A DNA stretch of 64,000 nt from Craspedostauros australis (Eukaryota; Bacillariophyta; Bacillariophyceae; Mastogloiales; Achnanthaceae), in the NCBI GenBank assembly GCA_026770025.1, contig JAMXDE010000006.1, forward strand, positions 1,798,001 through 1,862,000, written 5' to 3'. Both the position numbers and the translations under genes were made by a program. Below the pieces are notes generated by a model, which was given only the letters and a program-made list of their open reading frames with translations, was not told the origin of the DNA and searched no databases. This document shows, piece by piece, positions 19,426 to 63,516 of the stretch; position 1 is the first letter of the stretch, and each line of letters begins with the position of its first letter.

Positions 19426-20932
19426 CACGCAAGGTGTACAGCAAGATCAAGCGAGATACCATTCCACGCGGCCGCAGATGCTGCAAATGCAAATGGGTCT
19501 TCAAGCTGAAGCGTGACGGGACACATCGAGCGCGGCTCGTTGCATGTGGCTATTCACAAGTCTCAGGAGTAGACTTCCAAGAGCATTACTCACCTGTCAT
19601 CCATGACGTGACCTATTGAGTCATGATGATCATGTTGATCAAGAAGATGGACTGCGCACTCGTAGATGTCGTAACGGCATTCCTACACGGAAACCTCGAC
19701 GAGGAGATCTACATGAACTGTCCCAATGGGTTGGATCATCAACCAGACGAAGCCCTGACCCTACACAAGCCAATCTACGGACTTGTGCAGAGCGCCAGGC
19801 AATGGTTCAAGATGTTGGTATCGACCCTCAAGAATATCAACTTCGAACAGAGCGCAGCAGACCCGTGCCTATTCTACAGGAAGACGAAGGAAGGAAGCAT
19901 GATCGTGGCCATCTACGTGGACGATTGCTTCTGTTGCGGAGACTCCAAGGCACTGGAGACATTCCTGAAGGACATCCAAGGCAGCAAATTCAAGGTGACA
20001 ATCGAGCGTGGACTCGGAGACTACCTCAGCTGCAACATCGAACTGAACCATGACAAGACTAAAGCAACGTTGCGTCAACCACATCTCATCCAACACCTCA
20101 TCGAAGAGTTTGGAACCAAGGTTGAGAAGATGCAACGCTACACGACGCCGGGAACCCCGGGCCAAATCATCGTACGACCATCCGAAGATAACGGACTACA
20201 GAAGGTCGGACCGGAAGAACATGCCAAATACCGCCGAGGTGTCGGTATGCTACTCTTCCTCATCAAGCACTCGCGACCAGATATCGCGAACCCTGTGAGG
20301 GAACTCTCCAAGGTATTGATCGGGCCCACCAAGGCCGCAATGAAGGAGATGTATCGGATCATCAAGTATGTGATCGATACAAAGGACTATGGATTGAAGA
20401 TCCATCCAGCGCGTCCAGATGACGACGGCTGGGACATGGAGCTCTTCTGCAATAGCGAATATGCAGGAGACAAGAACACGAGAATCAGTGTAGGAGGGTT
20501 CATCCTATACCTGTGCAAGGTACCAATCCTTTGGTGATCCAAGGCACAGAGGGCCGTCACACTCAGCTCATCCGAAGCAGAATACGTTGCCCTTTCCAAA
20601 GCGGCAAAGGAAATCTGCTTCGTCATGCAGCTACTCGAAAGTGTGGGCGTCCCTGTGAAGACACCGATCAAAGTCCGTGTGGACAACATCGGGGCGATCT
20701 TCATTGCCAAGAACCCATCAACATCCCAACGATCGCGGCACATCGACGTGCGCCATCACTACGTGAGGAGCATGGTAATCAACAAGACCATCGAAATCAT
20801 CTTCGTCAACTCCAAGCAGAACACAAGCGACGGATACACCAAGAACATCAAGGCCGACTTACAACGTGAACACGAGAAGTCATACCTTGACACATCAAGA
20901 ACATTCGAATGACCGAATGCACACAGGAAGGG
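19426..20932 (+). mobile_element. Older copia D: RT and RNase H region, broken
   Basis: The translation aligns with A and B from RKVYSKIKRD through the RT core (YVDDCF) and RNase H (SSEAEYVALSKAAKE) to the shared C-terminus at 20912 and the polypurine tract before the LTR at 20933. It carries about two breaks and is clearly more diverged than A, B or C, hence older. The 5' end is cut by the LTR3 fragment. Confidence 0.9.
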
Positions 20933-21715: not shown

Positions 21716-21899
21716 AGCACATGCTGAACACAACAATGCTTATGTTTGGAATAAATGCCATGATCATTGCAAGTTGGCGGTTGTTGGTTGGCTGTGATAC
21801 ACATGGGCGATGCATAGAACTGGCAATCTTGATGTTGCCATCACCTCCAACAAAGCGGATGGAGACTGCATTGTTGGATGTGCGTCTTTGGATGTGTAT
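21716..21899. other. Short flank between copia D and the PiggyBac element, nothing recognised
   Basis: There is no coding sequence or repeat I can name in these 184 bases. They are the genomic flank into which the PiggyBac element inserted. Confidence 0.5.
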
Positions 21900-21918
21900 C
21901 CCTTCATGACCCAGGGCC
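21900..21918 (+). repeat. Left terminal inverted repeat of the PiggyBac element
   Basis: Reads CCCTTCATGACCCAGGGCC. Its partner is at 30420-30438 and differs by one base. Confidence 0.8.
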
Positions 21919-22024
21919 TATAGTGAATCCAAATAGCAAAAAATTTCACGGATTCTCCATTTTAACGTCGACGTTTACGTGTAACATATCCATAGTGATT
22001 TTTCCCCACGACAGAGGACCCCCC

Positions 22025-22083
22025 TTGCGTCAGGACGCAGATGTTTACTAGCGGTGTGCGTGAACTGTTGCGTCCTGACGCAA
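22025..22083. repeat. Left subterminal palindromes of P2 (two copies)
   Basis: TTGCGTCAGGACGCAG at 22025-22040 and TTGCGTCCTGACGCAA at 22068-22083. Each is self-complementary except for the central AG/CT, which gives it a direction. They are probable transposase-binding sites. Confidence 0.85.
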
Positions 22084-22316
22084 ATGAAAAATACCGCGAC
22101 GATTTGTCGCGACGTCGATTCGTGATTGATTCGTTGGATTAAAAGCGATTTTTGCCCCCCACAATTTCGGCATCGATCTTTCTGTCGTGCTTGTTCCCTT
22201 GTTATTTTCTCGCGCTTTCCATCTCTGCTTGTGTTGCAGAACGACATCAACCGCATACCATCATGGCATTGTAAGTAAGGATATGCTTTTCATCTACACT
22301 TCTACACAAATCTAAC

Positions 22317-25300
22317 TTACAGTTGGCATCGTGGGCCATCCCCTGGGCATTGCTTCTTTTCAAGGTCTTGCGTTGTCGCCATGGTTATGCCAGCAAGTCC
22401 TTTGGAACGAGTTCGTGTTGCAACATCGCCGGATTGCACGGTTTGAGATCGAGTCCATCTTCGCTTTGGTACTGGTTGTGTGTGCACTGCATTGCCTTCT
22501 TCCTTTCTTTTCCCCCTTCTCTGCCCATGGACGGCGATTTCGCTTACTCTGGTCTTTGTGTTTGCGGTACTTCGTGCCATTGTTGCTGACGCCTCCATCG
22601 CTTTGGGCGTCCTCGCTGCGGTCGCCGACGCCGCTCTGGTTCTCATCGCCGGCTTCGTTGTTGCTACCGTACTTGCATGTTGCCTTCTAGTGGGCCCAGC
22701 TTTCCGTTGCATCGCTTCAACTATTGTTGCTCCATTCCTTTCCTCTGCTTTCCTGGTTGTAGCGCGGCGTTCTGTTTCCAGTTTGCTGTTGCCTGCATTG
22801 TTTCCTTTCTGTTTCCTTGGTGAGTTTGTTTTGTTCCATTCCACGTAGCTAGTTGTTGTTTGGTGCGCCCATGCTCGGTCGTCTCCATGTAGCATTCGAA
22901 AGCAGGTGTTGCTAGCATCCACTGGTTCCTTGTTGATTATGATGTTGCACATCGTGACTTCATTTGCCATGCCACAGTGTGTCGCCCATTTTCTGTGATT
23001 GGCAGTGGGGGGAACACACGCAAACAGGTGACATTCCATGCACAGCCATTGCGTTGCGACCCCACAGACAATACATGGTTGTCTTGTTTTGATGCAGTGC
23101 ATTGGCATATGATTTCCTTCGCGCAGGCGCTTGTTGAGAGCCACCTCGGCGGAGGAAATTGATGTCGAAGTGCTTGACAAAAGAGCTCGGACTGCCGAGT
23201 TGTCCATTGGTTCGTGCTCCCATGTTGGCCTCCCATCAAGCACGCGAGGCTTCTTGTCATCTGAACTTGAAGTGCTGATCTTCACAGCTCTCTGTTCCGC
23301 CATACATCTGTTGTGATTCCTTCGTGATTCCTTCATCTGTCTCAGCATGTGCGCAAGGGTGTCTCTTGTTTCTTTGATCGAATCCGAGACAGACAGTCTT
23401 CCATTGAGCATCATCCTGTAGTGCCGGATGGCTGGCGTTCTCTCCAGATCTTTGTTGTCCAACACATCCGGTGTACAGCAGTACTGATGCAATTTGTGGA
23501 GGAACAGCATGTACACCTCCAGCAACCGTGCCACAGCGTAGCATTGGAAATTTGAGGATGGCAGCCGTGCTTGGTGCTGACGGATCATTCGCGAGACAAC
23601 ATCGGAACCACCTTTTAGAGCATTCCATCGCGAGATGATGGAAGGTACCAAGGTGTGAACCCGTGGGATGGGGGAGGGAAGGTCTTGGCAGGCCTTCCAT
23701 ATCATCAGTTGATGAAACACATCCTCGGTTGTGAGTGAGGCAATGTGGTGGCCGCCGGATCCTCGCTTCTGTGGGCTACGCTTCGAGCGAAGGTATTTCT
23801 GTAACCTCCTCCCTGACAGGGTTGTCGTTGGGAGGTGGCTGCGTTCGGTGTATGCGAAATCCAACATTAAGGAGAAAAGGTCATGCAAGACTATGCCGTA
23901 GGACTTCATGAGGGAAGGTTCAAAGTGTGTTGCCATTGACCTAATGATGTTGCCCAATTCGTCACCTGCCATCAACAATGGTGAGGCGCGTGACACAAAG
24001 GGCGGTGTGGATTGGGTTGGACGCATGTGTGAGGATATGTGCAGACTGGCATTTCATCGCACATCAGGATTGCAGCATGCTGAATGTGTGTGGTGGACTT
24101 ACCTATGGCAATCACAGCTCCTTTCACTCCAAACACGAACGCATGGTGGAGGAGCTGCACCATTTCGGATTTTTGCTGGAACAGTCCTCGCCACTTCTCC
24201 TTCTGTTGCTTGACATACACATGGCCATTGTCCTCCATGGAATGCCTGAAGGCTGCGGTCCGTTGATGATGTCTTTCATTGTTGACTGTACCAGGCCGAG
24301 TTCTTGTCTTCATCTCGACAACATACACCTCGTCATTCGTGTCATCAGCTGGATCGCCCACGACGGCAAGAAAATCAACTGATGCACGAGCATAGTTCCT
24401 GCCGCGCTTCTTCACAAGCCCTGCCCGGAATGCAGCTTTCACATACGCACCAGAGTTGTTGATGTCCGTCGTCTCCATCATCTTTTCCATCATTGGCTTC
24501 TCGTTGTCGTGGCCCATCTTCGCGTCCTTCGAAGATTGGCCACGGAGCCGTTTCATGAACCAGGCTTGAAGCATCAGTGTGGTGAGATCACGCTTCAACG
24601 ATATCATCCACGGTGTTTCCTCGTCGTCGTCTGCTCCTTCGTTGTCTTCCTCGTCGCGAGTGCTTTCATCGTTCACCGCGAAGGCAATGAGCCGATTGAT
24701 GATCTGTACTCTGGATTCGGTGATCTGTTTCTTATTCGGAATGCGTTCTCGCAACAGCTTCTTCAACGTTTGATCGTTGACGCAAATGAATCGTCTCCGG
24801 AGTTTATCCGTCTCTGCAAGGATGATCTGCATCGATTTCAGCTTCGTGGATCTCGCCCGTTTGGCTCTGTTCATGTAGAACATCCCCATGAGAGAGGAAA
24901 GTTCGGTGTCGGTCAGAAATGCCATTGGACTGTTGAGTTCACGCACCATGGCCCCAAGTTGTTGCTCCAACGAACATGTGTTGGTGTCAGGGTCGGTCAG
25001 TGCTCTGTGCAGCCTCAGACATTTCACCCTCACCCTTTCTTCCACCACTGCTGCGCCATAGGAGGTCGTCTTTCCCTCCACATTGAAACCATAATAGCGA
25101 CCGACCTCCTCCCAAGCAACTTGATTGAAGATGGTGGCGTTGTCGCTGTTGATCCACTCGCCACTGTTGAGTACAGCTTCGATCATGCGAAAAACGGATG
25201 TGCTGGTGAAGGAAAATCGCCTTTGGAGGAACCAGATGTGATCGCCTTGTGTGCAGGTAAGACCGTCCACTTGCAGCTCCCAGATCTTCTTCTTCCATCT

Positions 25301-27089
25301 CATTCGGACTGCGTGCTCGGCGTCTGCGACAAGGTTGGCGGTGTTTGCTGCGTTTGGTGAGATTGCAGCGACGGCTTCCGTTTGTGCCTCTGTTAGGGGG
25401 CCGTAGGTTTGAGCGCCAACGCCAGTTGTAGTCACTGCCTTCGCTGCAGTATACACAGACGAACGCTGGAAATCAGAGAGGCATTCATGGAAGAATTGAG
25501 GGTACGACTCTGACTGCGGATTCGGACCATCCTTCTGTACTACCATGTTGTGATACATCCTTTGGTCTCGTTGATGACGAAAGTTGATATCCCAGTCGAA
25601 TCCACCGGGCTTGGAGGACGTCGCAAGTACAGTATTCTGTCCTTGGCGATAAGCATAGCACCACATCGTGCGGCCCGATATGCTGTTTGTGGTTGCCACA
25701 GACAGCATTGGCGGGCCTGGGCGGCCCACATCCATTTGGAGGGCGCGATTCCTGGTGTTGGGATTGTATGTGAATGGGATGTGTGGGCTGCGCTTCTGCG
25801 TCCCTTCGATGTCGGCATGTTTGCTCATCAGGTCTGTAGCCAGCTCTTCAGAATTGTAGCCTCGGTCACACAATATGGTGACATTGCGGAGACGACCATC
25901 TGCTTGGGCTAGTTGTCCTAGTATGTTAGTACTATCATTGACAACTCCATCACGGGAGGCAGCGACTCCAACCACCAATCCCGACGCTGTATGCACCAAT
26001 GTATTCAAAGTAAATCTGCAAACGGAAGAAGGAGCAATAGATGCAGAGAAGAGAATGTTAGTAACACGATCGTATTGCAACGGTCAGTAGTCATCACAAA
26101 TTGGCAGCGGCAACTTACCCGTCGCGATTACATTGCACATGTCGCTGACCCAAGAGGCAGCTCTTTTCGCCCCGAGTCTGACAATGTACTTTGTCGTCGT
26201 CCAAGGTGACCATACGATGGAACTTTCCACGTGCAAGGCAGATAGTTTTCAACGTAGTATTCACCGCATTCTCTAGGTCCACCCAAAGGAATTGATGGCC
26301 AGTGTAGTTGTCTGGTGCGCCGTTCTGTTCAATGCGACTCCAAATTGCCATGTAGGAATCTCGCGATGGGAAATTTGGCAGCATCCGTGTTTCAGGCGAC
26401 TCGTACATTCCCTTCACTGTTGAACTCAGAAGTATCTGCTCACAGAATCCATAGAGGAGTTCAAGATACTCAGTGTAGGTCAGCCCAAATGCCTCTGGCC
26501 CCATCGCAGTGAGAAAGACAACTGAGGAGGGGCCCAAGAGGTGTTGAACCAAATCGTTCATGGTTGGCACGGATGGAGGACGATGGTGCAATAGTTGGAG
26601 GACGTTGCTGCGGGTGCACTGCACCTCAGACCGTGCATTGAGGAGACTGAAGTCATGTGCCTCGCTGCAGGTCATGCGTGTCCTGTGAAGGTTGGGGCTG
26701 AGCACACTCCACTCAAGAATACCCCGGGAAGAGTTCTCTGAAGGTGGGATGACTACTCGATGACTATGAGCAGCCTTGTTCGAAGGGAGCACCCCAAACT
26801 GCAAAGAGTCTTCAACAAGAATGGACCCTTTGTTGGCATGATCACTGTCACTGCGATGGCTGACATCATCATCATCTGCACTTGCAACATCCAAGCCATG
26901 ACTGTGAGCAGCCACAGAAGCATGGCTGCAGTTGGGGTTGCGAGGAGAGTGAGGTGACGGAGCAGTTGCAGGTGGAACCATGGCAGATACATGTGGGGGC
27001 ATGGGATGGCGGAGAGGATGGAAACCTGTTTCTGGTGGTGTTGCATCTTTGTCAGCACTGGAGGAAGATTGAGGGAGACGGATGCTCAT
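22317..27089 (-). CDS. P2 transposase: divergent PiggyBac-like DDE protein with PD-(D/E)XK-like domain, predicted 1510 aa, 3 exons
   Basis: Two introns with good consensus join three frames: donor GGTAAGT and acceptor TTTGCAG bound intron 26016-26118; donor GGTAAGT and acceptor GGCAG bound intron 23966-24102. Exons of 971, 1913 and 1649 nt total 4533 nt, an exact multiple of three. Exon 1 has a Ser/His/Pro-rich start, then a PiggyBac-like stretch ending in VTLDDDKVH (about residue 297, candidate first Asp). Exon 2 gives VTILCDRGYNSEEL (about 374, candidate second Asp), then much later SVDFLAVV (about 870) and VYVVEMKTR (about 891), the D...ExK signature of PD-(D/E)XK nucleases. Exon 3 has a Cys-rich segment (CIVCGVATQWLCMECHLFAC, about 1258), like the PiggyBac C-terminal finger, and a basic tail. 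The ATG at 27089 was chosen because the longer frame to 27371 starts inside a palindrome. The third catalytic acid was not located. Confidence 0.72.
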
Positions 27090-27351
27090 GGTGATGTGAA
27101 AGTGGGAAGTGCGGAAGGCGAGAGAGACGTTGATGCTGCTGCAATGAGGTGTGGAGCAGGTGAAGACGAACGACGTTGCTGGAGCAAGGTCGACATGGAT
27201 GGTGATGGGCGCAAACACAACAGCGACACAGAGAAGAAAGCAGGCGATTGTCCGTTGCAATGCAATTTCGAAGGAGGAGAAACAAATTCGAAGGAATCGA
27301 GCGAGTCTATCACGATTGCTCTTCGTGTTAAATTGCCACAGTAATTCTTGA

Positions 27352-27436
27352 ATGCGTCCTGACGCAAACACAAACGGTGCGACGTATTTAGCTTGCGTCA
27401 GGACGCAAAAAGGGATCGTTTTGCGTCCTGACGCAG
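27352..27436. repeat. Right subterminal palindromes of P2 (three copies)
   Basis: Copies at 27352-27367 (ATGCGTCCTGACGCAA), 27393-27408 (TTGCGTCAGGACGCAA) and 27421-27436 (TTGCGTCCTGACGCAG). They lie about 260-350 bases upstream of the chosen start codon of the transposase gene, so the transposase could also regulate its own promoter; that is inference. Confidence 0.85.
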
Positions 27437-27671
27437 AAAAAAATCACTATGGATATCACTTTCTTCGTACCTGAAGAAAGTTTGAGAGATGGGCGATCCA
27501 GCCATGTGTCGCTTTCGATGGGGTTGCTAGGATGCTTGTGTCGCAATCAGAGCCTGAACTACTCGTGAATCGTTTTTTGGCCAGCGGGACTGTCGCAAAA
27601 TTGATTCGGCGAGCCCGTCCCTCCCAATTTCGGTCTCTCCATCCCATTTTTGTCGTCACATCTCCCCTTCC

Positions 27672-27764
27672 CATCACATCACAAAATCAAAAGATCACAA
27701 CATCACAACATCACAACATCACATCATCACATCATCACATCATCACATCATCACATCACCACAT
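27672..27764. repeat. Simple repeat of CATCACA-type units before the PiggyBac start codon
   Basis: Tandem CATCACAA and CATCACAT units run up to 13 bases before the ATG at 27777, in the 5' untranslated part of the PiggyBac transposase gene. Confidence 0.85.
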
Positions 27765-27776
27765 GGATCATCCATC

Positions 27777-30275
27777 ATGGTCAAGTTCACCCGTGCCAAG
27801 CACAAGGAGCCACCTTCCACACCAACCAGCAGCCAGCCGTCCTTCTTTGCAGAGCCTGATCTCCCCTACACCAGCTCTCGTCCGCATGTGGTTTTCCTCA
27901 ACGATTCTCCAAAGTTGAATTGGTCTCCTCCATGCAAATGGCTGCCTCTGGATTCGACCACCCTCAGGGGCCTCGACGACAACCCGCCAACAACCAATCA
28001 TTCATCAACCACCATGCACACCAATGGCAAGAGCAGCATCATCGTGCCACCTGCGGTGGAGGGCAAAATCGATGCCAGCATCATCATTCCACCTGCAGTG
28101 GATCGCAAAATTGATGCTGGCATCGTCATACTACCTGCAGTGGATGGAACAAGCATCGTCAGCAATCCGTCTGGCATTGCTGGGCGCATGGCCACACGCA
28201 TGTCAACGCATATGGCCACGCAGATGGACACGGCATCCAATCAGAGCAACACTGCATGCATCAAAACTGATGCCAGCCCATCAAATGAAACCATCACAAC
28301 TGACTTTGCAATCACAGCTGACCCATCTGAAGGAAGCATTGGGAACCAGGAAAGCATCAGCACCCATGCAACAGTTGATGGCAGTCAGTACACCATCAAC
28401 ATCAGCAGCAACCATCAAAGCAACTACACACCACTCCCTGTGGGCAATCACAAGCCCAAGTTCCATGGAATACCAAATGTTGCCACCACGATTGAGAGCA
28501 TCTTGGAAATCTTCTTCCCTGAGACTCTTGTGGAGAGCATCCAGCTTCATACCAACAATCATATTCGAAACAGTCGATCCAATGCTGAACCAGTGACAGT
28601 ATGTGAACTGTACATAGTCCTTGCAATGTACTTCTACATGGGCTTCTTTGACGCCCCTGCAAAGAGAGACTACTGGAGAGCTGCTTCCATTTCCATTCCT
28701 TCTCACGAGCTCATGACATACATGACAAGAGCACAATACCAAGTCATTTGGAATCACATCCATCTCACTGCAATGGCTGAACACTTGGATGGCCAGTCAG
28801 ATTCTTCAATTGACAGCAGCGATACATCTGCAGACGATATGGATGATGATGTCTCTCCAACAGATCAGAGCCGCGGCACCAGATCATCATCGCAGACGGC
28901 CACAACTTCTGGAATGTCAGCTGATGCCTCAGCATCCTCATCAACGCTATCCGACCTCTCTGACAATGTTGCCCCACATGGGTCCGAGAGCAGGGCAGCC
29001 TGCAAACCTGCACCACCACCACCTTCAATGCCCCCTGTGATCATTTCCGATCGCTCATGGTATGCCAAGGTCCAACTACTGCTGGACCATACCAACCGGG
29101 TCTCTCAGAAGGTGTGCGCAAAGCCAGGGTTTGCCTGCTCCATCGACGAGATGATGGTACGCTTCAAAGGCCAATCAAGCCAAACCCATCGCATGAAGCA
29201 AAAGCCCATCAAAGAAGGATACAAGTTCTTCGCGCTGTGCTGCTCTGCATCTGGGTTCATGTACCATATCCTTCCTGCTGGAAGACTGGATAAGACAACA
29301 AAGATCAACAACACAGTGCAAGAGTTGATGGCTGTTCTTGATCCAAATTCGGGGTATGTCGTGGCAATGGATAATCTTTTCACAACAAAGACTGTGATTG
29401 AGAACTCCAGGAGAATGGGGCTGGGAATCGTTGGCACTGCTCGGAATCGTCGTGGCTTCCCTCCCAAGGAGCTGAAGGATATTGAAGATGGACGCTTCAA
29501 TTTGCTGTATCTGTGGACACAATCTGATGATCACGTCATCACAAGATGGGTTGACAACAACGTTGTCTTGATGGTCAGCACCATCCACTACGGAAATGAG
29601 ACAGTGCAGAAGGATCGCCACAAGCCAAGGGAGACCCAGACGAACAAGTCTCACCTCAAACAAGTGTGGGGGAGCAATTGGAACGCGAGGATTCACCTAC
29701 CAAAGATGATTGACGACTACAACCACTGGATGGGAGGCGTGGACAAGTGCGATCAGTTCATCGCCTACTACAGACCGAATCTCCGATGCCGACGAGTGTG
29801 GATGCCCCTGATGTTTCACCTGCTGGACATCCTGAGGGTGAATGCCTGGATCGCCCACAACATGCTGGTCGAAAAGGAGCATCAATTGGAGCACAAGGCA
29901 TTTGGTTTGCAGATGATTGAACGGCTTGTTGCGAAAGGTGTCATGTATGAATCGAGGTCAACAAGGGCAAGGGCACAGGCAACCACACCATCAAGGCCAG
30001 CGCCAAGATCGATCCAAACAGCATCCAGAATGAGCAGAAAGTCACCAACGCTGAGTTTGAAGAGACTGACAGGAGAGTATCGCGACCACAAGGAGCTCAT
30101 CGTGAGACAAGGGTGCCAGCGGACCTGCACATACTGTGCGTTCTTGAAGGCGAAAGCAAAGCAAGACGGAAAGGCAGGGGTGAAACCGAAAAGAGTGAGA
30201 AGGATGTGCAACATCTGTGATGTCTACATCTGCAAGCAACACTGGGCTACATACCATGGTCAGGATCAGGGCTGA
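27777..30275 (+). CDS. PiggyBac transposase, 832 aa, intact
   Basis: A cut-and-paste transposase of the PiggyBac family (DDE_Tnp_1_7). About 240 residues of Ser/Thr/His-rich, repetitive N-terminus (near-repeats of IIVPPAVEGKIDAS type) precede the catalytic region. Candidate catalytic aspartates lie in SIDEMMVRFKG (about residue 455), VVAMDNLFTT (about 531) and GGVDKCDQF (about 655 and 658). Other family hallmarks are GTARNRRGFP and RRVWMPLMFHLLDI. The C-terminus has a cysteine-rich finger (CTYCAF, MCNICDVYICKQHW), as in other PiggyBac transposases. An acidic, Ser-rich insert (about 340-410) splits the region before the first Asp. The frame has no stops and the terminal repeats are present, so the element could have been active recently. 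Confidence 0.95.
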   Translation: MVKFTRAKHKEPPSTPTSSQPSFFAEPDLPYTSSRPHVVFLNDSPKLNWSPPCKWLPLDSTTLRGLDDNPPTTNHSSTTMHTNGKSSIIVPPAVEGKIDASIIIPPAVDRKIDAGIVILPAVDGTSIVSNPSGIAGRMATRMSTHMATQMDTASNQSNTACIKTDASPSNETITTDFAITADPSEGSIGNQESISTHATVDGSQYTINISSNHQSNYTPLPVGNHKPKFHGIPNVATTIESILEIFFPETLVESIQLHTNNHIRNSRSNAEPVTVCELYIVLAMYFYMGFFDAPAKRDYWRAASISIPSHELMTYMTRAQYQVIWNHIHLTAMAEHLDGQSDSSIDSSDTSADDMDDDVSPTDQSRGTRSSSQTATTSGMSADASASSSTLSDLSDNVAPHGSESRAACKPAPPPPSMPPVIISDRSWYAKVQLLLDHTNRVSQKVCAKPGFACSIDEMMVRFKGQSSQTHRMKQKPIKEGYKFFALCCSASGFMYHILPAGRLDKTTKINNTVQELMAVLDPNSGYVVAMDNLFTTKTVIENSRRMGLGIVGTARNRRGFPPKELKDIEDGRFNLLYLWTQSDDHVITRWVDNNVVLMVSTIHYGNETVQKDRHKPRETQTNKSHLKQVWGSNWNARIHLPKMIDDYNHWMGGVDKCDQFIAYYRPNLRCRRVWMPLMFHLLDILRVNAWIAHNMLVEKEHQLEHKAFGLQMIERLVAKGVMYESRSTRARAQATTPSRPAPRSIQTASRMSRKSPTLSLKRLTGEYRDHKELIVRQGCQRTCTYCAFLKAKAKQDGKAGVKPKRVRRMCNICDVYICKQHWATYHGQDQG

Positions 30276-30419
30276 CGAATTTTTTTACTAGTAAAACCGT
30301 GTGAAAAGAAGAATGGTTCCGAACTAGATTAAAAAAGAAGGCTTTCTGTCGTAGCTCCTGGTAGGGAAACCTCGTTCAAAATTTAACACGGGCCGAAAAA
30401 AGGATATAATGAACGCATT

Positions 30420-30438
30420 GGGCCTGGGTCATGAAGGG
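30420..30438 (+). repeat. Right terminal inverted repeat of the PiggyBac element
   Basis: Reads GGGCCTGGGTCATGAAGGG, the inverted partner of 21900-21918 with one mismatch. Confidence 0.8.
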
Positions 30439-30888
30439 ATAGTCGGAAGCGTGGCTGAATGTGTTCAGCAGGTAGTTGTTCCAAGCACTATACAGAGCAT
30501 GGGTTGGACCTTTTTGTTAATGCAAGCCTCTGCATAGTTGGACTCAATGACAGTGTCGATACCATTTTCTGTGTCGATGCCACTCCTGGTGTTGATGTTG
30601 GCATAGTTGGTGGCGATGGCGCCGTGTCGCCGTTCACATCAAAGGGACACTTCTGTCCTTGTTTTGTTGGGATTTTGTTGAAACAATTTTGTCAATTTTT
30701 CGTATGTCTTGGTATTTTGGTGGTAGTACTTGAGATGAGCGACAACAATACGGAGCATACGATAGTCCCATCGCCATGATATCATGAAGGTATCGGTCGG
30801 AATCGTCGTTCAGTTGCGACAATGGAGTTTGTCAACTCGAGATACTCAAACGGAGATACTGCACGTAAAAATTGCAGTTTATTTGTTC
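30439..30888. other. Spacer between the PiggyBac element and X1, nothing recognised
   Basis: About 450 bases without a convincing reading frame or repeat on either strand. A GTGTCGAT motif recurs near 30555-30575. Confidence 0.4.
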
Positions 30889-55723: not shown

Positions 55724-55957
55724 CTGCAAATCAAAGTAGTATTCTTCTATGTTTTAGACACACCTGTGATTGGAGTGTTTGTGTGCGCATCGTCTGCTTG
55801 ATGGCATGGAGGATTGTGATGTGATGTGTTGTGTTTGAGTTTTTTTGTGACGAGGACCGTTATTTTTGTGTCGCGGTTGGTGCGCGTCGCCACACGATCG
55901 GTATTAGAACGAAATCGAATATCCACAAGGATTTTTCGTCGCACAAAAGTCGAAAAG

Positions 55958-56012
55958 TTGCGTCAGGATGCAACAGTCTCAGAAAATCTCGATTTCTTGC
56001 GTCAGGACGCAA
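55958..56012. repeat. Left subterminal palindromes of P3 (two copies)
   Basis: TTGCGTCAGGATGCAA at 55958-55973 (one base off the consensus) and TTGCGTCAGGACGCAA at 55997-56012. Confidence 0.88.
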
Positions 56013-58299
56013 ACCGAGAATTAGCGTGGCAAATTAACACGACGAAAAAATTGCATCGACTAGTTGGACTGATGGCCTCAAAAATATCCTCCTCTTGTGT
56101 GGACTTCCTTCGTGTTATTTTCTGAGCTTTTTTCTCGTGTTGTTTTCGCGTAGTGTTCAGTGTTCTCTAGCTCAAGCACATACTCTAGAGGATGCTGCCA
56201 TTTGCAGTGATCATGAGGATGCCAACTCTAGTTGGTTGGTACCATATTAGTAATAGCACTACCACAACAGCATAAACATGGTGTTTTGTTTAGCTAGCCA
56301 GTGTCTTCATGTCTACTCGACTACGTGCATTTCTTCGTGTATCGATAGGACCTGCGGTCCTTTCCTTGCCTACTTCACATTGAGCAGTTCCTCTCCAGGC
56401 ATCTTCACATGGAATCAGTGTCTATTTCATTCATTGTGAGGTGAGATGTGCATCTTGGTTTGTGTTTGCATCTATTTTGCGTCCTGTTCCGTTGGGTCCA
56501 ACCTCATTGCATGATCCAATCGAATCAAGATCGCCATCCGTGTGCTTATCTTTCAAGCAAAGATTGCTTGCTGCATTGAGAAACATGAATGAGTTAGTAC
56601 TATCATGAATAAGAAGATGTACATATGTGATAGCAGGACAGCAATCGGATTCTCTCACATTCTGGCTGCACGCATGACCGCCGCGAATGCAGTTGCCTTC
56701 CCACACATTAGTTTCTGCCAACCAAAGGGATCTCACTTGACAACAGTACAGGTACATACTGGCAAACACCATCTGCTTCTATTGTTTGTATGCCTCATGT
56801 GGTCTCAGAATTGAACTCCGCACAGGAAGAACATCCATGCCTTTGTTGGTGCAAAATCTTGCGTGAGATTCTTTTTTGCAGCAGGGATGCGCCAAGTGTT
56901 GGAAGTCCAAACCCGGTAAGCACAAGCTTCAGGACAATTGACAGAGCATTACATTTTATTTGAAGCAATGTGGAATGAAAGAGAGCCTTGTACTTGCAAG
57001 AAAACCAAGATTGTTGATGATCAATGTGCAGAGGCAAATTGTCGTGCAGAAGGCACGAACTATGTGCCCCAAACAGCACCACAGATAACACAGAGCTGAT
57101 GGGTGAGTGGAAACACTCTTTTAACTGAGAAGGAGCGAAAATAGGCAGCAAAGCTGGCAAAGAGAATGGTAGTTTCACAACAGGAAGGAGGACGACGGAG
57201 CCGGATGCGAAATATCTGGCTCCTTTCCTCCTCTACGCAAGCTGGAGAGTATGAAAGAGGCAAAGAATGTGATTTACAACACATAGAATCACTAATGTAT
57301 GGATTGCAACATTGAGAAGGTTGTTTTGATACTATTGTTGCTGGAAGTGGAGCGCAGATAAGATGTGCATCCATCAGTACAAAACAACACGGTACCTTCC
57401 ACCTCACTCACTCGGCAAACCGATAGCACTAGTTGTAGAGTTTTTGCTGTTTTTCTGGCCAGAATGAGTCGTGTTTGGATGATCCCGGGAGTATCGGCAA
57501 TGCTCTCAACACTACAGTTTCTAAAACCAACGAGTGGCCAGTGGCGTGACTGGTCGCAACTCACAAAACTGAGCAACAGAGGTTTGCGTTGTTGTCGAAC
57601 ACCCATCATCATGTTATGGCATCACACCTGTCCCCTCTCCACCTCTATTTCCTTGGTGCTAATACTTTTTCTAATTCTACTAATAGGCTTCGTTTCCTTC
57701 TCCTCGTAGGCGTTGCTGCTGTGGGTCTGTGTGTTGCCCATTCTGTCATGAGGGTGTTGTAGGCAAAGATACGCTTCGATCTTGGTAATGCTCACCTGGT
57801 CCGTTCCTGCCACTGGTCACCTGCACGCACATGGTCCCAATTGACATTTGTCTGGGCCATGCATAGCATATCCGCTTCGCTTTGCTTTATAAAGTCCAGG
57901 ATAACTTTGTTCTTGAGTTGGCATGCAAGAAGTGGGAGTTAAGAGACATTCTGGAACACGATCCGTATTGATTCGGTGGATTTGTGTGCCATCACATCCC
58001 CACAAGCATAGTTTTTCCCACTAACTTTGGTGTGATCCTTGTCATGTCGTTAGAGTTCCGCAGCACTGACCTGTGCCAGGTCTGCTTCCGTCCTTGCCAT
58101 TCTGGGTATTTTAGGTGGTTGAGCTGCCTTGGCTGTGTGTGGGTTCGTGTTCCTCCTGAAGTTGTGGCTGTTCGCTGTTGGTGTTGCCATTTCTTCGGGC
58201 GAGCGGCGGTGCCTTGTCATACTGCCTACGCCCAGTGATTCACCTGCGTTTGGTGTCGGTTGCTGGCTCTGGATGGTGGGCCTACTTCTTTGGATAGCC

Positions 58300-58720
58300 C
58301 TCATGTGTTTGATGTTGTTGTTGTTGTTGTTGGTCTTGTTGCAGTAGATGTTGTGCTCTGCACTTTTGTACTTTCTTTACAAGCTGTTACAGGTGCTGCT
58401 GACGTCACTGTTGCTGGTTCTGTTGTTGCCATTGTGCTCTTTGCCGTTTCTCTTTGTTTCTTCATTGTTGTTGTTTATTCTGTTGGCTCTGTGGCTACTG
58501 TTGGTTGTGGTGATACTGTGTGTATTGTCGGGTCCTTTGCTGTGTTCCTGCCTGTTGAGATAGTTGTCGCTGCTGTTGTTGTCGCGTGCTCGACTGAGTT
58601 GTGTTTTGGTGTCTCTACTGTTGCTGTTCCTATTGTTGCCTGTTGATAGTGTTGGCTTGTTTTCTGCCGTTCTTGTTGGGGCTGCGCCTGTGGTTTCTTT
58701 GTCGCTGGATTTTTGCTGAG
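58300..58720 (+). repeat. TTG-rich low-complexity stretch in M2
   Basis: Dense TTGTTGTTGTTG and TGTTGCTG runs give long but meaningless hydrophobic reading frames on the plus strand. It lies 3' of the decayed M2 gene. Confidence 0.7.
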
Positions 58721-58761
58721 TCCCTTCCTTCCCACGTATTTACTAGTCACTCTTACTTTGT

Positions 58762-61176
58762 TTACTCTTGGCTTGCGTTCTGGGGGACGCTGCCTGTTGG
58801 GTTGTTGGTGTCCATGAGGTTGGACCCACCTGATTTGGCATCACTGCTGTTCTTGGCCACTAACTTGGATGCCTGCTTTTCATGCACTTCTTCGCTGCTA
58901 CCATCCTTGCTATCTTCTTCGCTGTCCTCCTCGCTGTCGTCACTGTTGTCATCACTCATGTCATCTCCTTCTGGAACGGTATTCTCTGGGGCAGACAAGT
59001 CGAAATCCGTTTTTGCTTCAGCGGCCGTCGCGAACCTACCTGGGTTGGCAGTCTTGTGGTGGGATGTACGCGTGATGGCTTGCGCGACGTGATCAGCTTG
59101 TTGGACCACTGATGCCATCGCAAATGTGCCTACGGTGTTGTTGTCCCTGTTTTTAGTGTGGGGGCTGCTTTCCATTTGCACTTCAAACTTCAACAGCAGG
59201 ACAGGTTTCATGTTCCCGTCCTTTTCCACGTATCCTTCCCACCCCACGTCCGCTGGGGTGAGCCCCACCATTTCCTCTGCATCGAGGTCGAGGAAGTTGC
59301 CACCAGCTTGAACCAGCTGCCCCATCTCCCATTTCCTCCTTGCTCCGAATGAGGCCTGTCTCCCAGTCTACTTCATAATACTGGTTCTGTGCCCACGGCT
59401 CTCGTGTGAACCACCCTTGACAATTTTGGTCAAGCTTCTTGCTGCAAAAGAAGGTGAGCTTCGAAATGAGTTCCAGCGCTTAGATTCTCCGTTTGGGATG
59501 GAATACGAAGACAGCTCTGTTGCGGTCCATCCTGCCTGTGTCAGTCGACATGAAGAGAGCGAAGTCTGGGTTCCTGGACGATCTGAGGTTCATGATCACC
59601 TCCCTCAGGGTCAGATTCCAAATAGGCAACTCCACATCGAGCTGTCCAATCAAGTACACTCCTTGGGTTTTCATAGTCTTCTTGAATTGAACCTGGTGGG
59701 CTACCATGGAGCTCAGACTAGCAAGTTCTCCAGGGGGTGGTGGAATCTTTGGTCCAGCGTGTCAGGCATGAACCGCATCTGCTTGTCAAGCAACCGGACC
59801 TTGTCGGCACAGTTGTTGAAGAGTTCTTTCCTGTCTGTTCGGCATTGGAACGAGCGCGACTCTCTGCACATGACGTGTGTCGCTCTCGGTCTGTTGCGGT
59901 AGTCTTTGCCTTCTACCTGGTGTTGCCCTTGCTTTCTCACAAGGTGAATCTCCTGGATCCTCAACTGGACTGTGAACTTGTTTTGGACTTGTTCGCTCAT
60001 GTTGATTGCCTTCGTCAGATCATCAGTGTTGGTAGTGCTGTGGCTCCCAAACAACCAGCTGGCTGCAGCGATGCTGTGCTCCTGGATACCTGACTTGCGA
60101 AAATGAATGGCTGCCATGCTCAGGGTACTGTCATTGTCAAATGCTTCAATCTCCTGCTTATGAGCAACCCTCAGTCTGCTGTACATCATCGATCCCGTCT
60201 TTGCATAGAGACTCTCCACAATTTGTTTCAAGGTCTCCCTCGTGGACCATGGTACATCAGCGGAGGTCCATGGACGCATTGTGTTGTTCTTATGCCACGC
60301 CATGATCTGCGCCTTCGAGTCCGCCCTGAAAATGAATGCACGAAGGGCGTTCATACTGGCGATACCCTGCACCAGCGGGGAGTCATGGCCTTCACGCGTC
60401 ATGGGGAGTTGGACGTCAAAGAACATCTTGTGGTACTTGCTGATCACATCATCCACACTGTGGAGGTCCTGCGGTTTTGGCTGCTTGTGCAGAAACGTCA
60501 CAACCTTGTGTCTTAGTTTTTACTGTTTCTTGTTTTGCCACCAGGTTGGGGGATTTTGCCTGTTCTTCTTTTTCGTTGTCCAGAGGCATGCCTTTGACCA
60601 TCATGAGTGCCATCCTCACACCAATCCATGCTGCTGTCTTGTGTGTTGCCTTGATCTGCTTGGACTTCCACAGCCCTCCAGAGAATTTGTTGGAGGTGGC
60701 AACCAGTCTGACCATCAGCTTGACCATGTGCAGGTTCATGTCTGTGGACATCTTGTTGAAGTACGCATCGTGAAACATGCCTGTCCAGTCATCAAGAGAG
60801 GCACCCTCTTTCAGGGCCTTGTCCAGGTCCTTCACAAATGCCAGCACTTCATCCATAGCGCCTTCTTCCCCCATCATGTGCACGAAGGGTTCAGACCCTC
60901 TGATCAGCAGGTTGCGTTCCTGGAGGATGTCACCCCATTTTCGCTCCAGCTGGTGGCTCCAAATCCAACAGTTCTCATTCTCTGTGGGACAAGTTGACAC
61001 TGTCTTTTTGCTGGTGAGCTCCTGGCCTGTTGCTTTCCTCCTCAACCACCTCCTCGTCCGCTGTCACCACCAGTGTGACACCCTCCTCTTCCTGTACCCG
61101 CACGGGGTGTTGTCTGTTTCTTTTGGGTCCTCTGAGAGCCTCTCCCAGAGTCGTTTGTAGCATCGTTGCATGCCAT
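58762..61176 (-). pseudogene. Decayed gene of unknown function carried by M2
   Basis: Consecutive minus-strand frames from an ATG at 61176 or 61163 to 58762 look like one protein with several frame breaks. They contain WSHQLERKWGDILQERNLLI, the stretch SKQIKATHKTAAWIGVRMAL, a central block with HSIAAASWLFGSH and LLDKQMRFMPDTLDQRFHH, then WNLTLREVIMNLRS and a C-terminal acidic Ser/Asp/Glu tail. I do not recognise the family: no DDE, RT, helicase or nuclease motif is evident. It occupies the place of the transposase in M1, but the products are not alike. It may be a captured gene or a second transposon protein. Confidence 0.55.
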
Positions 61177-61369
61177 GGTGAAATATGTTTTCTAGTGCAG
61201 TTTCTACTTGTTCTACGCAAATTTTACTGGTCCTACGTACGTCTTCAACTGTGAGAGGGTCACGGGACTGTGGTTAGAATGCACTATTTTTCCGAGTGTT
61301 TCCCATGTCTTGGCTTTCACAGAAACCAACAGTGGACTCACCAGACTCAGGATTTGTGGCAAAGGTTTG

Positions 61370-62683
61370 GAGGCATTCGTTGGAATTCTGTTTTAATTTC
61401 CCACACCCCAACAGCAAGAAAAGACCGTCACCAAGAAACCAAACACAACAACACGACAATGGGAAACAAAACAACACTCTGTGAGAACCGCCAAAAGACA
61501 TGGACGGCACTGCATCAACCACCAGTCCAATACCAAATCCAAGCACATCAACGGAACCGCCATGGACAGCTTGGTGGATGGGCAAGAGGGCGCTGTCAGA
61601 GCGGTTCATTTGAATCAGCGATAGCGAAACGAGCAAAACGCGCAAAAGAGCGTCAACCATGCACGTTGGGTACGGGATGTGTGTAGACGATACAAGCCAT
61701 TTCGACAAACATGGATGGGCAAGACGCATCAAAGGTATCAAGATGAAGGGCTCTACGAAGTTTGAGGCTGAAAGGATGCCTGGAAGGTGTCAAGAGAAGG
61801 AACAAGTGGAGTGCAAGAGTTTTTTGGGTGGTGGCAAAGTACCCATCACGTGGCTTTGCTGGTGTGGTGGCGCATGTGAACATCCACCACACCGCCAACC
61901 CACCCATACAAGATGTGTTAATCATCAAGTCAGGAATGGGGTTGGAGAAGTGGGGATCGATTACATTGAGTGGAAGAGGTTGAAACCAACCAAATGCTGC
62001 AGTCGCATTTTTTCGACACGAAGAAAACTGACAATGGCATCAGCGTCCGGATGGATACAAAATTGGAGATCCATCTTGAGGCGTTTTGGGATGCATCAAC
62101 GTGTCCCCAGTGAATCAGGGATCGAGGTGTGCTGCGTGGGGGGAACAGAGATGGATGTGAGAGGGAGATATGATCAGATGAAGCAGCTGGCTTCGGACTG
62201 TCCTTCATTTTCAAAAATGTTGGATTTCAGGTATGGGCTGCCAACGTGTGTTGAAGGGAGATCTGACGGTGCATGCTTGGCAGGGATGGATACATATGGG
62301 GTATATGGAGACAATGAGATGCGCAGGTGGTCGAAACGAGACGGTTCTGGGCATCATCTTGGATGGCAAAGTGATGGCACCATGGTGCCATCCAGAGTTT
62401 TGTGGCACGCACAATCACACGTTATCAACAAAAATGCTGTTAAATTTGAAGTTAATTTTAATTCAAGTTCAATATTCCTATACATCGCAAGTTATTTTTT
62501 CACATGGTACATTTATTTTTAATTGTGAATGATGTGGTGTTGCGATATAGCATCATAAGCACTTTTTGGGATGGATTGCATTTTTGCTCTAGACTGGACT
62601 ACGCAACACGACTAATCCCACGTTGGAGGGCAAAAAACTCTACAACTAGTGCTATCGCTTTGCCGAGTGAGTGAGGTGGAAGG
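61370..62683 (-). repeat. M2 right arm, homologous to the M1 left arm
   Basis: Inverted match to 51456-52770, roughly three-quarters identical by eye. It lies upstream of the decayed M2 gene, just as the M1 arm lies upstream of the M1 transposase, so it probably carries the family's promoter region. Confidence 0.78.
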
Positions 62684-62810
62684 TAAAACACACAGTAATT
62701 GTTCAAAAGCACAGGCGACAAATGACGATATTGGACGATTTTTGGAGCGAGGGTTCGAGTGAGTCATACAATTTTGCGCTCCGTGTTAAATCTCCACGAT
62801 AAAATCAATT

Positions 62811-62883
62811 TTGCGTCCTGACGCAAACTTATTTCGGGGTTGCGTCAGGACGCAAGAAAAGCCGTTTTTGCGTCCTGACGCAA
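62811..62883. repeat. Right subterminal palindromes of P3 (three copies)
   Basis: TTGCGTCCTGACGCAA at 62811-62826, TTGCGTCAGGACGCAA at 62840-62855 and TTGCGTCCTGACGCAA at 62868-62883. The centres read CT, AG, CT, the same order as at the right end of P2. Confidence 0.9.
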
Positions 62884-63516
62884 GGGTTTTGTCCTTGTGG
62901 ATATGGGTAGGGTACCGCACCGAAAACGCAGAGTGATCAATTCATAGTTATTGGTGAGGATGATTGTTTGTTATTGAGTTATTCGTATGAGTAGGTGAAG
63001 ACTGTTGAGCTCCAAAGATTGAGATCTTGGAACTGTGAGCATGAGAGGCAACTTGCAGGTCTCATGCGATTGCAGATGGAATATAACACAGAGACAACAC
63101 GACAAATGTGCATGCTACTGCGTGGGTTCAGATTTGCAAAGTCAGAAAAACAAACACCGCGATACGCCGTGTTGTAGTGTGCAACTCGTCACGATGTTGC
63201 GAGTAGAACGATCACACGATTGATCATATTCACTCGAGAAGGTTGGGGACGGTTCCGTATTTATTGGACCCAAGACCGAAGTCTGTCCTGATTGGGCAGA
63301 GTGGTTCATCTTGGCAAGAAATTCATTTCCGCGACATGTTGGAACTGGGATTGACGGGAAAACGGTTCTTGCGACGCGAAATGCGAAACAAAATTGACAC
63401 AACGGAATTTTGACCAGAATTTCCGTTTGGAACGGAAAAGGTAAGAAAAGTGAAGATTTCTGATTGGTCGACGGGTGTCGCTATTGTTAGGAATATAGCG
63501 TTGCGCTAATAATCGG

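Follow-up and report, generated by a model that had tools for sequence, protein, structure and literature searches.

The locus studied here lies in a window of 64,000 nucleotides (the whole stretch of DNA that was analysed) from the diatom Craspedostauros australis, and it raises the question of whether a single gene of a mobile element, P2, joins a DDE transposase to a nuclease and, if so, what such a nuclease could do for the element. We regard it as probable that P2 is a cut-and-paste DNA transposon with one spliced gene, in whose single polypeptide a DDD transposase allied to piggyBac is joined to a PD-(D/E)XK nuclease of the lambda-exonuclease/RecE type and a Cys-rich finger.

Insertion site and ends of P2

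P2 is nested in a second transposon, the piggyBac element P1, with the following layout.

21897..30441, plus strand: P1 piggyBac element, host of the P2 insertion, with 25-nt terminal repeats (inverted repeat I4)
27558-30275, plus strand: P1 transposase open frame (PF13843, E 5.2e-46)
21986..27456, minus strand: P2 transposon, counted with its two flanking ATATs (21990-27452 without the repeated ATAT)
21986-22014 and 27428-27456: arms of the P2 terminal inverted repeat (I3), 29 nt, 83% complementary
22026-22039 and 22069-22082 (region 22026..22082), no strand: left subterminal palindromes TGCGTCNNGACGCA, from the motif count
27353-27366, 27394-27407 and 27422-27435 (region 27353..27435), no strand: right subterminal palindromes TGCGTCNNGACGCA, from the motif count

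P2 is a genuine insertion, since the examined P1 loci that lack it show a single ATAT: the P2-free site, GTGTAAC-ATAT-C, was found in all 10 of the other P1 loci examined, which represent nine distinct places (L058 and L064 overlap). What was gained on insertion is either P2 plus ATAT or P2 plus TA. The symmetric ends of P2 (ATATCC...GGATAT, with imperfect arms) are compatible with a 4-bp ATAT or a 2-bp TA duplication and incompatible with AT; because the target is palindromic, duplications of 2 and 4 bp look alike, and we rejected the attempt to fix the length at either value. Among distinct P2-type ends (27 rows, with 6 chance matches removed), the outer A is present on 20 of 21 and absent from one. 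The palindrome TGCGTCNNGACGCA occurs 9 times in the window against 0.01 expected, five of these inside P2, where the subterminal ones are likely binding sites of the transposase.

A search for further copies with the same end repeats, as the earlier note had proposed, revealed that other genomic copies do share the P2 ends, and P2 is multicopy in this genome. One further copy, located on contig C14, has 11 mismatches to P2 in 4853 bp (99.77% identity), which suggests recent movement of P2.

Gene structure and genomic copies

The gene occupies the minus strand of the window.

26119..27089, minus strand: exon 1, with ATG at 27089, the N-terminal part of the transposase and D297-D299 (D297 at 26201-26199)
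26016..26118, minus strand: intron 1, 103 nt, phase 2
24103..26015, minus strand: exon 2, with D374 (25867-25865), D466 (25591-25589), a linker and the nuclease core
23966..24102, minus strand: intron 2, 137 nt, phase 1
22317..23965, minus strand: exon 3, running to the stop, with the Cys-rich finger and a basic tail at the end

The three-exon model proposed earlier, said to give a protein of 1510 aa from exons whose lengths sum to a multiple of three, proved exact on both counts, as splicing and translation yield 1510 aa and the exons add up to 971 + 1913 + 1649 = 4533 nt, or 1511 codons with the stop counted. Both catalytic-candidate motifs and the nuclease signature named with it are likewise present in the spliced protein (VTLDDDKVH from aa 294, DRGYN from 374, VEMKTR from 890), and QPCIVC starts at aa 1257. 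Both introns have GT-AG borders and GTAAGT donors; for the acceptor of intron 2 five AGs were tried, and the long frame was opened solely by the AG that ends at 23966. Exon 2 belongs to an open frame of 703 aa, and because D374, D466 and the nuclease motif all lie in this one frame, the fusion of transposase and nuclease is independent of splicing.

The exon-2 search covered the window's own genome (74.8 Mb, 90 contigs) and returned 114 matching segments, a number of segments and not of copies, ranging from 100% down to 27% identity. For comparison of the junctions we used 35 loci, namely 30 from this search (the window's own copy included) and five distant ones, with a script that considered frame-keeping junctions as its sole candidates. 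The intron-1 junction was found in 32 of the 35, with an identical donor codon and phase 2 in all 32; intron 1 is 103-179 nt long across copies with the frame preserved, L066 and L067 being excluded here because the script seems to have chosen a wrong acceptor in both. The intron-2 junction was found in 28 loci. Phase 1 holds in 26 of these, whereas L025 and L030 gave phase-0 junctions of low score; in L066 the chosen acceptor again looks wrong. Even in diverged genomic copies (27-51% identity in the exon-2 search) both introns sit at the same codon and in the same phase. Such conservation of introns with the frame kept, judged from the sequences and within the limit set by frame-keeping candidates, is strong evidence for the predicted P2 gene, and on this ground we rejected the view that the model is an artefact of open frames.

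Five distant loci were examined, of which L070 was legible in part; in the other four, L066-L069, the domain order is identical to that of P2. The transposase-nuclease fusion is conserved in diverged copies. In the host genome the silicic acid transporter family gave 88 matching segments; together with a YqaJ-type protein that bears an AFAP presequence, they make it almost certain that the host is a diatom.

The transposase

D297, D298, D299, D374 and D466 are invariant in all 12 aligned members of the P2 family, near-duplicates and deletion copies having been excluded from this alignment. A DDE_Tnp_1 (PF01609) match at aa 321-392 has E 3.3e-5 and 24.2 bits against a cut-off of 23, while no match to PF13843, the domain of the P1 transposase, was found in P2 at E up to 5. 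Aligned with hhalign to a piggyBac profile built from ten proteins of the same genome (P1 and nine further loci), the P2 family scored 38.5 (E 6.5e-4, probability 27.5%), a score reached by none of 100 column shuffles (maximum 22.3; reversed control 15.4). In this register D297 coincides with the aspartate of piggyBac SIDE and D374 with that of the MDN motif, and the third aspartate, D466, lies just beyond the aligned stretch. P2 resembles piggyBac in its DDD residues and its C-terminal Cys-rich domain, arguably in its catalytic profile, and in a 4-bp AT-rich palindromic target provided that the P2 duplication is ATAT; it differs in the missing PF13843 match, in ATAT instead of TTAA and in the added nuclease. 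Because PF13843 and TTAA are both wanting, P2 is not a piggyBac member by the usual tests, and on these alignments its transposase appears to be a distant relative standing outside that membership. P2 is probably a separate piggyBac-allied lineage in diatoms.

Another candidate identity is Kolobok, which by description duplicates a TTAA target, ends in 5'-RR and bears a C/DxxH motif after the second and before the third catalytic residue, and whose KolobokE members, together with ISL2EU, bear lambda-exonuclease/YqaJ-type nucleases. That P2 should be a Kolobok or KolobokE-type element is nevertheless improbable. Its target is ATAT, its termini are CC/TCC ((ATA)TCC ends) and not RR, the 12 rows show no conserved C/DxxH in the interval from the second to the third acidic residue (there is no invariant H in 374-466), and its catalytic profile resembles that of piggyBac. 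We accordingly set P2 apart from Kolobok on target, termini and C/DxxH alike, Kolobok being taken here from description.

The nuclease and the finger

24104..24532, minus strand: nuclease core, with GHxNExP, YARASVDFL, VEMKT and the QLLHH helix (alignment A1)
24376-24374 (D871), 24316-24314 (E891), 24310-24308 (K893) and 24157-24155 (Q944), minus strand: nuclease residues
22920..23110, minus strand: C-terminal Cys-rich finger C..C.......C..C....C

In 24 distinct rows (identical ones removed, 16 of them forming the diverse copies of A1), no row departs from the nuclease D, ExK and Q, and SVDFL, ExKT and QxLxH are kept throughout; in the NE motif, 3 of the 24 have K in place of the acidic residue. 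Lambda exonuclease and its YqaJ relatives have the same order of motifs, GHxNExP with an acidic helix, then D, ExK and the Q helix. The alignment of these exonucleases comprised nine phage records and one gene of the host genome; eight diverse phage exonucleases were chosen, and 80 relatives of lambda exonuclease from viral contigs were set aside because, being 98-99% identical, they were useless for a profile. Against this YqaJ profile hhalign brought D and ExK into register, in a weak match with a score of 22.2 (P-value 0.021, probability 2.2%), which none of 100 shuffles reached (maximum 20.1; reversed 14.6). The YqaJ-type protein with an AFAP presequence mentioned above is encoded by the host genome itself.

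Library searches with 16 family members gave matches to the same class in some relatives. The RecE-like exonuclease family phrog_434 of PHROGs matched 4 of the 16 (best E 6e-5, L069 residues 47-148), and the NCBIfam lambda-exonuclease family TIGR03033 matched 6 of the 16 (best E 0.0025), with scores of 15.6-17.9 bits where the cut-off is 68. P2's own nuclease matched neither phrog_434 nor any Pfam or NCBIfam family; its best PHROGs match was a family of unknown function (E 0.082), and its PADLOC match was a type II restriction enzyme (E 0.013). PF09588 matched none of the 16. Six Pfam families were matched in all, every one weakly, the most frequent being the unrelated IQUB (3 of 16, best E 0.005); Endonuc_Holl and UPF0102, two other nuclease families, were matched in two members each; a search of the host genome for UPF0102 found none. 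The unrelated NCBIfam TIGR01691 also matched 3 of the 16. Scans with the nuclease profile returned three chance-level matches among the sequences of solved structures (best E 0.17), 59 pattern matches with zero relatives among viral contigs, and 22 pattern matches in the genome contigs, of which two passed (L162 and L163). L162 was then rejected as an unrelated ORF, presumably kinase/nucleotidyltransferase-like, whose sole likeness is the string SVDFLSIVGD.

From the motif order and the weak matches of relatives in two libraries, the P2 nuclease would be nearest to the lambda-exonuclease/RecE class, from whose members it differs in its fusion to a transposase and in the lack of PF09588. Two AlphaFold models from the single sequence reached pLDDT 46 and 43 and did not recover a nuclease fold. 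The PD-(D/E)XK assignment of the earlier note is upheld at the level of D, ExK and Q and putative at the level of the fold, and its picture of a single polypeptide holds for a piggyBac-related DDD transposase, a nuclease motif and a finger, with the same reservation. The C-terminal Cys-rich finger that it had described is present, with five Cys invariant in 21 aligned copies, and none of the zinc-finger models matched it at its own cut-off.

Conservation, selection and nuclease-less copies

Six regions were compared in the four deep relatives L066-L069, and conservation is highest in the nuclease, with 42-53% identity to P2 as compared with 31-35% in the exon-2 part of the transposase and 28-33% in the finger. 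In a nearer group the nuclease, at 50-55% identity, is slightly ahead of the transposase part of exon 2, at 43-53%; the finger (51-64%) is conserved equally or better. Sixteen chosen pairs were used for dN/dS, in five of which, the distant ones, dS was saturated in most regions; of the 58 values from the 11 pairs of close relatives, 53 were below 0.5, including 9 of 10 for the nuclease. Among the exceptions, L011-L013 in the nuclease (1.56) and L014-L023 in exon 3 (1.0) involve few changes each.

On the other hand, one subgroup has discarded the nuclease. All six copies fetched from it share a loss of 1.7 kb, in which both the nuclease core and the zinc finger have gone, with an overlap of 3-5 bp at the junction, and their 2.4-kb left part is 94-97% identical to full-length copies; 13 places in the exon-2 search end at query residue 536. 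These deletions favour the view that the nuclease is dispensable or decayed baggage and that the transposase alone moves P2. We find this very improbable, in the face of D, E, K and Q invariant in every nuclease row and the top rank of the nuclease in the deep relatives. Moreover, the listed exon-2 segments of 12 of the 13 deletion places contain at least one stop, as expected if they had moved in trans, although some nuclease-bearing copies likewise contain stops. Most simply, the deletion copies multiplied in trans; and because copies without a nuclease multiplied, the nuclease is not needed in cis.

The same copies bear on the main rival reading, modelled on Tn7, a bacterial element in which the restriction-type nuclease TnsA works with the DDE transposase TnsB, normally as a separate protein. 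By analogy, the P2 nuclease might make the second cut, that of the 5' strand, at the ends of the transposon, replacing hairpin chemistry or acting beside it. The pairing of a restriction-type nuclease with a DDE transposase is common to both systems, one exon encodes the nuclease together with catalytic aspartates two and three (in the copies read with an open exon 2), and a covalent link would suit a role inside the transpososome. We consider such a role unlikely, as exonucleases are what the family matches point to, the matches listed (six Pfam families, NCBIfam and PHROGs) include no TnsA family, and the multiplication of nuclease-less copies is compatible with it in trans alone.

Proposed mechanism and known systems

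Returning to a transposase joined to a lambda-exonuclease-type nuclease, we can imagine the following sequence of events. The finger and the subterminal palindromes would position the P2 protein on the element ends, and the DDD site, to go by its family and the shape of the target, would most likely cut beside ATAT and join with piggyBac-like chemistry. The nuclease, given its class, could then resect 5' strands, either where the donor site is broken or where ends have been processed; resection would steer repair to homologous copying, by which the element might be restored at the donor. For this repair role of the nuclease, 5' resection steering donor repair, our support is tentative. A broader proposal, that P2 founds a superfamily-level diatom lineage, sister to piggyBac and targeting ATAT, whose attached nuclease resects or processes ends so that donor repair rebuilds the element, is in our opinion doubtful.

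The earlier note had called such a fusion unusual. This must be tempered, as the pairing of transposase and nuclease has precedents in KolobokE and ISL2EU; it remains apt for the piggyBac type, since none of the literature matches listed, judged by title and opening of the abstract (partial coverage, with Repbase outside it), joins a piggyBac-type transposase to a lambda-exonuclease-type nuclease. In ISL2EU, of the PHIS superfamily, a YqaJ exonuclease domain occurs in the majority of autonomous candidates, located in a second ORF, beside a transposase with HTH and THAP domains, and the target is A|AT|T (PMC4482050). An exonuclease-type nuclease and an AT-rich target are thus features that ISL2EU shares with P2 (PMC4482050). 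Unlike ISL2EU as there described, P2 has its nuclease fused, in the same open frame as D374 and D466, and the identification of P2 with ISL2EU was rejected. Of the duplications conceivable at its ATAT site, AT would not suit symmetric ends.

Lambda-exonuclease-type nucleases would now accompany at least three kinds of DDE transposase, namely Kolobok, ISL2EU and the piggyBac relative P2. If they were acquired separately, control of end resection at the donor site may be of benefit to cut-and-paste elements. With diverged copies, a near-identical pair and natural nuclease-less derivatives in one genome, the end-resection idea is directly testable. As a minor observation, an exonuclease of another kind, DEDDy, is mentioned for the Dada elements of two species in PMC3706591.

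Derivatives of P2 and elements with similar ends

Six loci of the diatom genome (L024 and L034-L038) are deletion derivatives of one subfamily of the transposon P2, lacking both the nuclease and the finger, and all of them share a single breakpoint. This same breakpoint is where 13 places terminate among the matches of the genome search with P2 exon 2; derivatives of this type, devoid of nuclease and finger, have multiplied.

Two further elements of the window have ends similar to those of P2:

21897-30441, P1, the piggyBac element into which P2 is inserted (PF13843 match, E 5.2e-46)
55919-62904, second element with P2-type ends (ATATCCACAAGG...CCTTGTGGATAT), about 7 kb

The left end of P1 reads N-TATCCC, without TTAA, in 11 loci (10 distinct places), and the ends of P1 are similar to those of P2 (TATCC). 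The second element contains four subterminal palindromes, no P2-type protein was found in it by tblastn, and it is probably a non-autonomous or composite member of the P2 family.

Other genes

Open frames for a Copia-type reverse transcriptase and RNase H, identified by eye, lie next to the nested elements (19620-20912). Elsewhere in the genome there are two further YqaJ-type genes (L071 and L072), neither being a P2 element, and L072 appears to carry a plastid-targeting presequence. Additionally, the silicic acid transporter family yielded 88 matching segments, many almost full length, which is a large number for a single genome.
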